Below the pieces are notes generated by a model. It was not told the origin of the DNA. It ran no database searches and saw only the letters and a program-made list of their open reading frames with translations. A program made the position numbers and the translations under genes. A stretch of 64,000 bases of DNA from Cyclobacteriaceae bacterium (GTDB lineage: Bacteria > Bacteroidota > Bacteroidia > Cytophagales > Cyclobacteriaceae), in assembly GCA_028284125.1 (NCBI GenBank), contig JANQSI010000001.1, positions 248,001-312,000 on the forward strand, in the 5' to 3' direction. Below are positions 46,950 through 50,780 of this stretch, piece by piece (positions within the stretch are counted from its first letter, which is position 1; the number at the start of each line of letters is the position of its first letter).

Positions 46950-48623
46950 TCAATTCGCAAATTTTCGTTTCCTTAAATACCACTTCAAGACTCCTGCCAT
47001 GAGAATCAAAAGAACAGGTAATACCAAATTAATCACTTGCCATTTGGCTCGCTCTTGCTTCACTTTCACACGATCTAATGGCCGTATTTTCACTTCCCTG
47101 GATCTTGTTTCTATTAACCCAGAATCATCTACCATGTAATCAAGAATATTCAAAACCAGTTGTTCATTGGCGTAAGTCGTTTTTGTAAAAGCCTCCACTC
47201 CTAAAGCTAGCGGTTCGTTGCTCTCAGGGTCAAAATCATTGATGATCATATCACCATCAGCGAATACGATAACTTTTCCTTCTTCTCCCCTCTCCACAAA
47301 AGCTGACTTATCAATACCTCTTGGTACTAAACGATTGGCGTACAAAGAAGTGAATTTTCCTTCCAGCAAGTAGGCAATGTTCTGAACGCCACCATTGAAT
47401 CGTTCAGGATTAAGTTCATCTTGTAAATCATTGAGTGCTACACGAACCGGAGGGCCCAACACTTTAGAATATTGAGTAGTTGAAGCCAATGGAGTTTTTC
47501 TGATACCAACTGCCTTCACCGTATCAATTGTCGAAGTGAAACGAGTGAGAATCGCATCTAAGTTCCGAACGCTCGGATGTTTTGAATAATTGGTAACTAA
47601 TGGAAAAAATGGCCAGGGCAACATTTGAATCTGAGGCTGATCTCCGAAATTTCCTCGTACAATAGGGAGTTCTCCACTGTTGACATCCAATACAAAATTT
47701 CGATTTACGCGAGCACCATATTTGAATAAAAGGTCTTCCAGGTTTGTCTCATATGGAATTGCGACTGTTCCCTCACTCAAAGCGCTATCGATATTCACAC
47801 TCAAAGCATCAAGGAAAAAGATCAATCTTCCACCTCGCATCAGGTATTGATCAAGGAGATACTTTTCTGATTCAGTGAAGCGATCTCTTGGCTTGGCGAT
47901 AATAACTGCATCATAGCCTCTAAGCTCTTTTTTGTTTTCAAGACGAACATCAAACAAATCGTACTTGGTCAGGATTGCATTCTTTAATCCCGCCAATTGT
48001 TCAGCATCTGGAGAACCATGCCCCGTGATGAATCCCACCTTTTTCAAGCCTCCATCTCCTAATTGAGAAATGGCTGATGCCAATTCATACTCCAATCCTT
48101 CTATCGCTTGATTCAAAAATTCTTCATGACCAGAAGCTCTATTTCCTTTAAGCAAATTCACCGGAACTTCACTCATACCTTGAGAGACCAAAGCTGATGG
48201 GAAGATCAACTTCTGAAGGTTGTTGCCGTCTTGCACATAGTTCAAGTTGGTCGGTTGCAATCCTTTTTCCATCAGCAACTGGTAAAACTGATTTCTTGAT
48301 TGTGTCGACTGAGCCTGAGCCGGGTCGGTAAATTTGTATTGAACAAGATTTCCTGATTCCTCGCCGAACTGCTCCAGCATTTCCTGAATCGATCGTTGGA
48401 AGCGTTCAAAGTTTGGAGGAAGATCTCCTGCCAGATAAACTTCAAAAAACACTTCTTCTTCAAGCTCTCGTAACAAAGTCTTTGTTGATTCAGAAATGGT
48501 GTAGCGTTTCTCTTCAGTTAGATCAATTCGAACTTTAAATCGGTCAGCCAATTGATTAGCTAACCACACAGAAAGTATGACAATTGTGAGTTGTAGAACG
48601 GTATGTAGTTTGTTCTCATTCAT
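46950..48623 (-). CDS. gldG: Gliding motility ABC transporter accessory protein GldG
   Basis: A 557-residue protein with a membrane helix at the N-terminus (TVLQLTIVILSVWLANQLA) and another near the C-terminus (INLVLPVLLILMAGVLKWYL). The extracytoplasmic part has RIDLTEEKRYTISESTKTLL, KKVGFITGHGSPDAEQL, GYDAVIIAKPRDRFTESEKY, and YLLDQYLMRGGRLIFFLDAL, all typical of GldG/DUF4350 proteins. Together with GldA and GldF it forms the ABC complex required for gliding in Flavobacterium johnsoniae (established knowledge). It overlaps gldF by 4 bp (ATGA). Confidence 0.95.
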   Translation of the reverse strand: MNENKLHTVLQLTIVILSVWLANQLADRFKVRIDLTEEKRYTISESTKTLLRELEEEVFFEVYLAGDLPPNFERFQRSIQEMLEQFGEESGNLVQYKFTDPAQAQSTQSRNQFYQLLMEKGLQPTNLNYVQDGNNLQKLIFPSALVSQGMSEVPVNLLKGNRASGHEEFLNQAIEGLEYELASAISQLGDGGLKKVGFITGHGSPDAEQLAGLKNAILTKYDLFDVRLENKKELRGYDAVIIAKPRDRFTESEKYLLDQYLMRGGRLIFFLDALSVNIDSALSEGTVAIPYETNLEDLLFKYGARVNRNFVLDVNSGELPIVRGNFGDQPQIQMLPWPFFPLVTNYSKHPSVRNLDAILTRFTSTIDTVKAVGIRKTPLASTTQYSKVLGPPVRVALNDLQDELNPERFNGGVQNIAYLLEGKFTSLYANRLVPRGIDKSAFVERGEEGKVIVFADGDMIINDFDPESNEPLALGVEAFTKTTYANEQLVLNILDYMVDDSGLIETRSREVKIRPLDRVKVKQERAKWQVINLVLPVLLILMAGVLKWYLRKRKFAN

Positions 48624-49348
48624 CCTTTCTGTAGGTTTAAAACCAACTTCGTCACATACAAGAAAAGGACTGTCAAGGAAATCAGGTAAACTACCTTGCT
48701 AAAGTCTATCAGCCCTTTACTCAAAACTTCGTAATGCGCAAGAATCCCTATTTCTCTAATTATCGCTGAAGTGTCCGACCAAACATTGATACTTGCCAAT
48801 GATTCAAAACCGGTATAAAAAAAGAAGCATAAAAAGGCTGCGAGAATAAATGAAACGATTTGATTTCCGGTCAACGCAGAAGCCATGACCCCAATAGAAG
48901 TGAAAATTCCCCCTAACAAAATCAAGCCAATGTAAGATCCGATAATTCCTGCTGTATCAATATTTCCAACTGGATTTCCCAAATACGAAAGTGAAAAATA
49001 GTAAACCAAGGTTGGCAGAATAGAAAACAGGACAAGGAAAAATCCGGCAAGAAACTTCCCTCCTACGATATCTATTTCTTTAAATGGAAGTGTGTATAAA
49101 AGTTCAATCGTTCCATTTCGTTTTTCTTCGGCAAACGATTTCATTGTAATCGCTGGAACCAGAAACATGAAAACATAGGGTGCCAGTGAGAAAAGCGTTT
49201 CCATGCTGGAATAGCCGTAATCTAGAACGTTAGTCTCCGGAAAAACCCACATCAACAATCCCATTCCGATTAGGAAAATTCCAATCACTACGTAGGCGAT
49301 TAGCGAATCCAAAAATTCATGTATTTCTTTCTTTAGAATAGCAATCAT
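48620..49348 (-). CDS. gldF: Gliding motility ABC transporter permease GldF
   Basis: A 242-residue permease with six helices (ABC-2 family). It begins MIAILKKEIHEFLDSLIAYV and has APYVFMFLVPAITMKSFAEE with KRNGTIELLYTLPF, the signature of ABC-2-type GldF. Its ATG overlaps the stop of the inserted DUF559 gene by 4 bp. GldF is the membrane channel of the GldAFG complex. Confidence 0.96.
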   Translation of the reverse strand: MIAILKKEIHEFLDSLIAYVVIGIFLIGMGLLMWVFPETNVLDYGYSSMETLFSLAPYVFMFLVPAITMKSFAEEKRNGTIELLYTLPFKEIDIVGGKFLAGFFLVLFSILPTLVYYFSLSYLGNPVGNIDTAGIIGSYIGLILLGGIFTSIGVMASALTGNQIVSFILAAFLCFFFYTGFESLASINVWSDTSAIIREIGILAHYEVLSKGLIDFSKVVYLISLTVLFLYVTKLVLNLQKG

Positions 49349-49353
49349 TTTTC
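49345..49353. repeat. Right copy of 9-bp flanking direct repeat
   Basis: TCATTTTTC. The same nine bases occur at 49881-49889 on the other side of the DUF559 cassette. Read on the coding strand, GAAAAATGA contains the stop codon of one gene and the ATGA overlap with the next, at both ends. Confidence 0.6.
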
Positions 49354-49884
49354 TTGTTTTACACCCCTATAATCCCCTGAAGGGGATATTTGCTGACGAA
49401 TAAGATTTACCTTTTCAAGAATTGAATTCACAACCCATTTCATATTTTGTTTCACATCAAGATCATCAAATACGATGACTTTTATTCCTTGAGTTTCAAT
49501 TCTTTCCAAACGCCTCTTATCATAAGAAATTTTCCATTCATGACTGTTGCCATTGACCTCTATAGCCAGCATAAGTTCATGACAATAAAAATCGACAATA
49601 TAATCTAGTACGGGAACCTGTCTATGGAATTGAACCCCCAATTGCTTTTTTCTAATTTCCTGCCACAGAAGTACTTCCGATAATGTACTATCCTTTCTTA
49701 AGCTCCGTGCTTTTTCTTTCAAATCCTTTCGATATGGAACAATTCGATTCTTCAAGATATATGGAACACCCCTATAATCCCCTCCAAGGGGATATTTGCC
49801 AGGGAAATAAATTTTGAAAATTAGACTTAAAGTTTTTTCGGGAGTAAATCCCCCTTTGAAGGGGGTTAGGGGGATGTATTTCAT
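49345..49884 (-). CDS. DUF559 protein (very-short-patch-repair endonuclease-like) in gld operon
   Basis: A 179-residue protein. Residues ~55-165 form a DUF559 domain, a PD-(D/E)XK-type nuclease fold related to Vsr: RKDSTLSEVLLWQEIRKKQL, GVQFHRQVPVLDYIVDFYC (candidate Asp), LMLAIEVNGNSHEW (candidate Glu), and TQGIKVIVFDDLDV. The N-terminal 50 residues and the last ~14 residues are low-complexity and encoded by the palindromic repeats (YIPLTPFKGG, KYPLGGDYRGV, SPSGDYRGV). The start overlaps the gldA stop (ATGA) and the stop overlaps the gldF start (ATGA). It is thus read as part of the operon, although it has no known role in gliding. Confidence 0.88.
   Translation of the reverse strand: MKYIPLTPFKGGFTPEKTLSLIFKIYFPGKYPLGGDYRGVPYILKNRIVPYRKDLKEKARSLRKDSTLSEVLLWQEIRKKQLGVQFHRQVPVLDYIVDFYCHELMLAIEVNGNSHEWKISYDKRRLERIETQGIKVIVFDDLDVKQNMKWVVNSILEKVNLIRQQISPSGDYRGVKQEK
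49361..49393. repeat. REP-like palindrome, copy A (cassette right end)
   Basis: A hairpin-forming sequence with CCCCT-GA-AGGGG at its centre, preceded by ACACCCCTATAAT and followed by ATATTTGC. It matches copy B at 49766-49799 almost base for base in the same orientation, and copy C at 49846-49877 imperfectly in inverted orientation. Confidence 0.75.
49766..49799. repeat. REP-like palindrome, copy B (internal, same orientation as A)
   Basis: Identical to copy A except at the loop (CCCCT-CCA-AGGGG). It is translated as KYPLGGDYRGV within the DUF559 protein's N-terminal region. Copy A is translated as SPSGDYRGV at the C-terminus. Confidence 0.75.
49846..49877. repeat. REP-like palindrome, copy C (cassette left end, inverted)
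   Basis: The centre CCCCCTTT-GA-AGGGGG forms a hairpin, followed by TTAGGGGGATGT. Read on the minus strand, it begins ACATCCCCCTAACCCCC and aligns imperfectly with the plus-strand copy A, giving terminal inverted repeats. Confidence 0.7.
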
Positions 49885-49889
49885 TTTTC
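49881..49889. repeat. Left copy of 9-bp flanking direct repeat
   Basis: TCATTTTTC, identical to 49345-49353 and in the same orientation. It encodes the last codons and stop of gldA. Confidence 0.6.
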
Positions 49890-50780
49890 CTTCGTTAATT
49901 CCTGAAATACGCTTTCCAATGAGTGCTCATTCTTGGAGATGTTGACCAACGGAAGCGAGTGCTCACCAGCCACTTTCATGATGATTTTTCGAGGATCTCC
50001 ATCACCTTTAATCGTGTACGTACTTTCCTGAGCGAAGCTGATAGCTAATCCTTCTTTTTTGAAAAGATTCAAATCAATCTCTTCTTCAAATTCCACCGAA
50101 TAGCTTACTTCCTCTAGCTTGTCTTTTTTGAGGTTTTGGACTTTGTCGTCCGCTACAATTTTTCCCTTATCAATGATTACCACCTTGTCGCAAAGCGCTT
50201 CAACCTCTTGCATGATATGCGTTGAGAGAATAACCGTTTTTTCCCTGCTGGCAGATTTAATAACATCTCTAATCTCCACCAATTGATTGGGATCCAATCC
50301 GCTAGTTGGTTCGTCTAAAATCAAAACATCAGGATCATGGATCAACGCCTGCGCCAAACCCACTCTTTGTCGATATCCTTTTGATAAGGCGCTGATTTTC
50401 TTTGCCTGTTCTCTCTCCAGACCACACAGCGATATCATCTCTTCAATCCTGCGATTGACATTTTTTTGACCATACGCACCAGCAATGAAACTCAAATATT
50501 GCTTGACATACATATCCAAATAGAGTGGATTATGCTCGGGCAAATAACCGGTTATGTGCTTGACTTTTAGCGGCTCCTTACTCACATCTATTCCATCAAC
50601 CAACACAGTACCTGAAGTAGCGGAAATGTAACCGGTGGCAATTTTCATGGTTGTAGATTTTCCGGCTCCATTTGGTCCTAGAAAACCTGTAATTGTGCCT
50701 TTTTCAGCTTCAAATGAAATCTCGTCCAGAGCTTTTTGAGTATTGTAAACTTTTGTGAGTTTTTCTACTACGATTGACAT
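49881..50780 (-). CDS. gldA: Gliding motility ABC transporter ATP-binding protein GldA
   Basis: A 299-residue ATPase. Walker A is GPNGAGKST (Lys41), the signature is LSKGYRQRVGLAQAL (~135-149), Walker B is VLILDEPTSGLD (~154-165), followed by ILSTHIMQEVEALCD (H-loop). It energises the GldFG permease. The C-terminal ~80 residues form the usual extension. It starts 106 bp from a divergent FMN reductase gene and ends exactly at the border of the DUF559 cassette. Confidence 0.95.
   Translation of the reverse strand: MSIVVEKLTKVYNTQKALDEISFEAEKGTITGFLGPNGAGKSTTMKIATGYISATSGTVLVDGIDVSKEPLKVKHITGYLPEHNPLYLDMYVKQYLSFIAGAYGQKNVNRRIEEMISLCGLEREQAKKISALSKGYRQRVGLAQALIHDPDVLILDEPTSGLDPNQLVEIRDVIKSASREKTVILSTHIMQEVEALCDKVVIIDKGKIVADDKVQNLKKDKLEEVSYSVEFEEEIDLNLFKKEGLAISFAQESTYTIKGDGDPRKIIMKVAGEHSLPLVNISKNEHSLESVFQELTKEK

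Follow-up and report, generated by a model that had tools for sequence, protein, structure and literature searches.

How does a nuclease gene come to lie between two genes joined by a stop-start overlap, with each of its own ends joined to the neighbouring gene in the same manner? This question is raised by a stretch of 64,000 nucleotides from a Cyclobacteriaceae bacterium (GCA_028284125.1, contig JANQSI010000001.1, positions 248,001 to 312,000), referred to in its whole length as the window. On the minus strand, a gldA-like ABC ATPase gene (49881..50780; PF00005), orthologues of which have empty sites, is followed by an ORF of 179 aa (49345..49884) that matches DUF559 (Pfam PF04480, E 8.3e-27, 93.7 bits against a cut-off of 20.6), by a gldF-like ABC-2 permease gene (48620..49348; PF12679) and by a gldG-like gene as the next in the operon (46950..48623; PF09822 and PF23357), which forms a further ATGA overlap with the gldF-like gene. 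The putative names gldA and gldF derive from gene order and not from the assignment of a tool. The nuclease domain comprises residues 54-159 (49408..49725, minus strand), as defined by Pfam and supported by an AlphaFold model with pLDDT mostly above 90 and by PDB matches. On balance, and with modest confidence, the insert is interpreted as a splicing-free, homing-like selfish nuclease cassette that is bounded by its own matched palindromes.

A prior sequence-only reading of this locus had described a flanking 9-bp repeat, ATGA overlaps at both borders and related palindromic ends in inverted orientation. The repeat TCATTTTTC is indeed present at 49345-49353 and again, after 527 intervening bp, at 49881-49889; on the minus strand, where it reads GAAAAATGA, the copy at 49881..49889 contains the end of gldA and the start of DUF559 and the copy at 49345..49353 the end of DUF559 and the start of gldF. 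The ORF coordinates confirm the ATGA overlaps at gldA/DUF559 and DUF559/gldF. The inverted ends were also recovered, but the palindromes number three instead of two. In the order of the coding strand, gldA is followed by P1 (49849..49877), an inverted repeat recognised by reading of the sequence, with the hairpin CCCCCTTTGAAGGGGG and an outward foot TTAGGGGGAT on the gldA side, by P2 (49766..49799) with its foot towards the nuclease domain, by the domain itself, by P3 (49361..49393) with its foot outward on the gldF side, and by gldF. P2 and P3 are direct copies of each other, whereas P1 is inverted relative to P3. All three are translated within the DUF559 ORF, which has extra residues both before and after the domain. 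Taken singly, their predicted folding lies barely above that of shuffled sequences (z -1.1 to -1.6), and the case for them is comparative. Two patterns made from these palindromes found no other copy in the genome at up to three mismatches, which by that test rules out an abundant REP family. A second DUF559 copy of the same genome (L001, G000:C5:158410-158739) has an internal stop codon and palindromes on both sides and is apparently a decaying cassette. The 9-mer occurs six times in the window against 3.0 expected and is not rare alone. At least five bases are shared just upstream of ATG in 4 of 741 pairs of ORF starts in the window, the cassette pair being among the four, and GAAAA precedes ATG at 3 of 39 ORF starts. 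A chance origin of the flanking repeat is unlikely (below 1%); the repeat by itself is no proof, and a preferred A-rich start context may contribute to it.

Comparison with relatives shows that the cassette was inserted at the gldA/gldF overlap. GldA was searched in 39 genomes and matched at the set limit in 38; 30 loci were taken, in 27 of which gldF was measurable. Seven of the ten genus genomes (G001, G002, G004, G005, G006, G008 and G009) present a clean 4-bp gldA/gldF overlap without any insert, and the nearest empty relatives, G004 and G001, carry a single GAAAAATGA, as had been anticipated for empty sites. With the overlap intact in these seven genomes, the counter-possibility that all close relatives carry DUF559 at this place falls away. 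In G007, the DUF559 ORF begins at the gldA stop and a palindrome doublet comes after it, the two together spanning 473 bp; G003 holds a palindrome doublet of 133 bp without the nuclease. Such nuclease-less doublets may have arisen when palindromes recombined and the nuclease was lost, or they may be a non-autonomous unit of their own. The flanks in G007 and G003 have little in common beyond ATGA, and the 9-bp copy is visible in the window only. Outside the genus, none of the 17 measured junctions is wider than 257 bp, which leaves no room for an intact DUF559 gene. An unrelated palindromic insert of 119 bp was observed at the gldA/gldF junction of a genome from another family of the order (L103, G036).

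DUF559 is widespread in Bacteroidota, being present in 140 of 247 genomes according to a Pfam search. The genus of the window contains 21 DUF559 places, with 0 to 5 matches per genome and about a dozen sites besides gldA/gldF. Two sets of loci were used for further analyses. The first comprises 86 loci that came from similarity searches or from the genus, including the window and 16 of the 21 genus places; L111, L115, L116, L120 and L121 were left out as partial or weak. The second comprises 80 of the best 85 Pfam places in Bacteroidota genomes, after skipping four near contig ends (G133:C35, G128:C89, G216:C2 and G235:C194) and one whose domain is interrupted by a stop (G266:C1:2049364); since lower-scoring places were left out, this sample leans to intact copies. 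Hairpins are about 24-fold denser close to the nuclease in the 80 places (2.82 per kb up to 300 bp from DUF559 against 0.118 per kb beyond 600 bp), and the 86 loci gave similar values (2.48 per kb within 300 bp against 0.11 per kb further out). They flank the domain on both sides at 40 places, on one side at 28 and on neither at 12; the respective numbers are 41, 28 and 14 for the 83 loci of the first set with full flanks. Among cassettes with two palindromic ends (97 of 166), the left and right palindromes match each other with a mean of 20.7, compared to 10.1 for shuffled pairs and a largest shuffled mean of 11.4. The orientation of the feet varies among cassettes and the ends are variable. 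To judge by record titles, loci with DUF559-associated hairpins come from several phyla. Taken together, these sequence comparisons indicate that the palindromes probably belong to the nuclease. Plasmids and phages were also considered and are unlikely carriers: matches were confined to 30 plasmid records out of 72,556 and 2 phage records out of 50,697, none of them reaching 60% identity.

The cassettes also reside in frame inside host genes. Defining residence inside a larger frame by at least 150 residues before and at least 100 after the domain, 25 of the 80 domains qualify and 50 stand alone, and five are intermediate, being extended at length on a single side or failing to reach these limits. 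Hairpins accompany the 25 on both sides in 12 cases, on one side in nine and on neither in four. NCBIfam models assigned the 24 fused proteins that were scanned to LeuRS (six, at two sites), MetH (three), PglX-like proteins (three), RecG (two), RecB/AddA-like helicases (two), HsdR (two), HsdM (two) and IcmF (one), in addition to a weak methylase match (L190) and two proteins without a host family (L189 and L245); L260 was left out of the scan and its HsdR label in the tree is a sequence reading. Host-family matches lie on both sides of the domain in 13 proteins (LeuRS six, MetH three, RecG two, IcmF one and the HsdR protein L195), and these are true in-frame insertions. In the remaining proteins such matches lie on one side or are not evident, and the reading frame that follows the domain in L190 and L192 is possibly not the host's. 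In the MetH protein L198, the cassette parts the two B12 domains, and in the RecG protein L263 it lies between the two helicase parts. By our own reading, further fusions involve a PLP enzyme in Winogradskyella and a relative (seven loci), QueG (two) and RnpA (one).

The LeuRS gene was surveyed within one family, where 197 of 199 genomes matched. At site 1, DUF559 is present in at least 14 genomes, namely at six of the 30 best loci and six of nine long ones, with G388 belonging to both sets, plus G066 and G090; in G369 the domain is degenerate. Empty alleles present a loop such as NVNDHDAVIDVFTTRPDT instead, and filled and empty alleles thus occur within one family. Since each of the 14 filled genomes has a single LeuRS match, the filled enzyme is presumably functional. 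In other genomes, different short, palindrome-like peptides are inserted in frame in this loop (VIASEAKQS..., LSAVEGS... and LNHQNTS...; L269-L298, e.g. L278, L280 and L283), and palindromic insertions may thus favour this place.

The encoded protein points to a nuclease of the Vsr/EDxHD type. In an alignment of 57 sequences, D98 and H115 never vary, and conservation reaches at least 90% at E109, D111 and G112, the window protein having N at position 111. The motif D..E.[DNE]G..H is found in all 80 of the 80 places; a first, stricter pattern matched 63 and was widened after the misses proved to differ in neighbouring residues. The AlphaFold model of the window protein matches the PDB entries 3hrl, a DUF559 protein, and 3r3p, the homing endonuclease I-Bth0305I (E 1.3e-4, probability 1.00), and more weakly 1vsr, Vsr (E 0.038, probability 0.98). 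A profile search also retrieved 3hrl and 3r3p, the latter with an E of 5e-7, and both the predicted fold and the profile thus match I-Bth0305I. No separate DNA-binding part was seen in the cassette protein. Work on Caulobacter describes VsrA, a DUF559 protein, as needed for the DNA damage response in a methylase mutant, which suggests that a member of the family acts on DNA in cells (PMC12907096).

In the proposed mechanism, which follows that of homing endonuclease genes, the nuclease would cut a cassette-free allele, and a filled copy would then serve as the repair template and pass the cassette on. On rarer occasions the cassette would insert ectopically via breaks, the repair of which may leave duplications of varying length, and insertions would persist when host translation is undamaged, i.e. 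at tight junctions, with duplicated gene starts, and within in-frame loops or between domains. What the comparisons show is insertion with empty sites, palindromic ends that match, residence in frame, conservation of catalytic-type residues, purifying selection and a patchy presence; cutting, homing and excision belong to the proposed part. Homing as such is supported indirectly, by the related fold, the conserved active-site residues, the clusters of same-site copies, the filled and empty alleles and the conserved genes that serve as hosts. The wider claim is that of a splicing-free homing element, in which a nuclease of some 120 residues, ending in palindromes that are coding, would enter conserved and essential genes as an additional in-frame domain or fit itself into stop-start overlaps, and would spread by the cutting of empty alleles. 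This is put forward tentatively, as a serious candidate that falls somewhat short of probable.

Several known systems share some of these features. The EDxHD/Vsr-like homing endonuclease I-Bth0305I resembles DUF559 in its nuclease fold and profile, and both occupy conserved genes that have empty as well as filled alleles. In contrast, DUF559 stays in the host protein or forms a small ORF, with no intron or intein in the copies tested: Rfam retrieved no intron but only a SAM riboswitch and Flavo-1 in 18 fused loci other than the window, and Pfam no intein domain in six fused proteins. Free-standing homing genes exist, and the lack of an intron or intein therefore does not exclude an element of the homing endonuclease kind. 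In fungal mitochondria, homing nuclease ORFs lie in or next to the coding gene rps3, the displaced end of which is duplicated; DUF559 cassettes share the position in or beside a coding gene and the duplication of displaced gene ends, but the rps3 nucleases are of the LAGLIDADG type and have no palindromic ends. DUF559 cassettes further differ from I-Bth0305I in their palindromic ends and in having no visible long DNA-binding tail of the kind described for that enzyme (PMC3943268). The Rickettsia palindromic elements are likewise in-frame palindromes within protein-coding genes (PMC10969869, PMC3733652); these elements comprise about 150 bp and encode a small peptide, whereas DUF559 cassettes hold a full nuclease between palindromes. 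Their CGTC tag was not noticed in the DUF559 copies read, in an unsystematic reading. The REPtrons of REPIN/RAYT systems and the TIRtrons also consist of a gene between hairpin-with-foot palindromes of its own and form solo doublets, but they encode an HUH tyrosine transposase instead of a Vsr-type nuclease, their feet read GTAG instead of the GGGG-rich feet of the DUF559 copies read, and they differ from DUF559 with its 0 to 5 matches per genome in the window genus. A Y1/HUH transposase, the hallmark of REPIN/RAYT and IS200/IS605, is absent within the element, the insert-filling ORF being DUF559.

The single parts are already known: DUF559 itself, Vsr-like homing nucleases (PMC3943268), in-frame palindromes in Rickettsia (PMC10969869) and REPtrons (PMC3733652). 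Among the literature matches listed, from sources that leave most subscription journals outside their coverage, none linked DUF559 to palindromes or in-frame insertion in its title or the opening of its abstract. Homing nucleases are described as able to persist in conserved genes owing to their association with self-splicing introns and inteins (PMC3943268). In place of splicing, the cassettes appear to rely on palindromes that can be translated and on fusions that the host tolerates; such fusions occur in RecG, in MetH and in a LeuRS that is the only one found in its genome. If this interpretation is correct, DUF559, a large family of unknown function, gains a role open to testing, the way in which many fused proteins of Bacteroidota are annotated is explained, and the creation of domain insertions by selfish DNA becomes experimentally accessible in laboratory flavobacteria. 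As homing elements that do without splicing, the cassettes would count among the smallest invasive elements that are autonomous, and for Bacteroidota proteins they would be a source of domain insertions that has gone unrecognised.

The gldA/gldF site alone could be explained by one ancestral insertion, followed by vertical descent and exact losses between the 9-bp copies, with the cassette now immobile. In a tree of 147 sequences, from which 24 loci of the 86-locus set were excluded due to a stop in the matched stretch, the window and G007 cassettes are sisters (support 0.992), and the GldA, GldF and HisC trees place their hosts in different groups, each with gldA/gldF-empty members; either one old insertion was lost exactly several times, or the same site was reached repeatedly. 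The sister cassettes from two host clades fit the ancestral insertion, as does a divergence of the cassettes (74% protein identity) like that of the host genes (GldA 74%, GldF 83%). This history would require separate exact losses in both clades and leaves the dozen or so other genus sites and the duplications of host sequence elsewhere unexplained; it is considered possible but doubtful, and for that one site it would be compatible with the selfish-nuclease reading. Throughout the tree, copies from the same site often cluster (HsdM 0.995, RecG 0.83), a pattern that would also fit old insertions with repeated loss. The copies at LeuRS site 1 (eight in a clade of 19, support 0.31), in AddA and in HsdR are not monophyletic, and one site is therefore not always held by one lineage.

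Less likely still, the mobile part would be REP-like palindromic units moved by another enzyme, such as a Y1 transposase of the RAYT or TIRYT kind, with DUF559 as a passenger. The DUF559-less doublet at gldA/gldF in G003, the remnant at hisD/hisC in G005, the palindrome-like peptides without DUF559 in the LeuRS loop and another palindromic insert at moxR/DUF58 in G001 agree with this, and RAYTs and TIRYTs with flanking palindromes are known (PMC3733652). Yet the hairpins accompany DUF559 in several phyla and are matched within each cassette, and the two window patterns found no further copy in the genome; movement of the cassettes by a trans-acting Y1 transposase is possible. A third explanation takes DUF559 as a domain useful to the host in defence, repair or regulation, gained at each site and lost in many lineages. 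DUF559 is probably under purifying selection, as the low dN/dS values suggest (0.203/2.36 for window and G007, and e.g. 0.065/1.59 for LeuRS-borne pairs, with dS saturated and one DUF559 pair undefined), which also fits such a domain, and the hosts HsdR, HsdM, RecG and AddA act on DNA. However, LeuRS, MetH, IcmF, gldA/gldF and hisD/hisC have no common function and presence is patchy among near relatives, and a host-useful domain is held to be rather improbable.

At other junctions of the genus, for which the names hisD/hisC and moxR/DUF58 are provisional readings, the cassette is fused in frame to hisD in G007 and a palindrome remnant alone is left in G005; hisD and hisC have no insert between them in G000, G001, G003, G004, G008 and G009, and the locus is incomplete in G002. 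A different insert with terminator-like hairpins occupies this place in G006 (L144). The genes moxR and DUF58 share a GTGA overlap in G000 and are separated by a cassette and a doublet in G003; the remaining genus genomes have distant MoxR relatives or no match, and G001 has a different palindromic insert (L308). No clear target duplication was seen at hisD/hisC and moxR/DUF58. Stop-start overlaps as the general target, a possibility that the sequence-only reading had raised for testing, were rejected, as few stand-alone cassettes overlap their neighbours: among the 50 of the wider sample, a simple ORF heuristic detected overlaps of 1-8 bp at 2 of 30 measurable upstream and 4 of 39 downstream borders. 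Duplications of 7-12 bp were not the rule elsewhere either, with lengths from none to more than 40 bp. A broader principle fits better, in which the cassette survives where host translation stays intact, be it at junctions, at gene starts or in frame.

With hairpins masked, the two flanks are more alike than mismatched pairs at many loci, 18 of 83 (of the 86) exceeding all 1,500 controls and 20 of 78 (of the 80) exceeding all 2,000. Many of these repeats hold palindromes or repeated units, so that flanking repeats were discarded as a general proof of target duplication and only those with a recognisable host gene start were counted. Such duplications occur at L110 (41 bp), L122 (33 bp), L061 (44 bp) and L033. 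In these cases the next gene's start codon is part of the repeat, so that an intact start is kept downstream. The L110 repeat is the conserved start of a downstream kinase, and homologues without the element in G006 and G007 have a similar start. Syntenic empty sites were not found for L110 and L122, and for L107/L112 the downstream gene was located in G001 and G003 only. With cases of 0, 9 and 33-44 bp, the length of the duplication is not fixed, which differs from the fixed-length duplication of a classical DDE insertion sequence. Direct repeats of more than 140 bp around DUF559 at L042, L199, L242 and L267, of which that at L199 is apparently coding, could be large tandem duplications instead of target duplications. 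At L203, the cassette lies between two truncated copies of one gene start (MNFNKF.I.SQEAVQ), which we take to be ClpB-like, as if repeated insertions had struck the same gene start.
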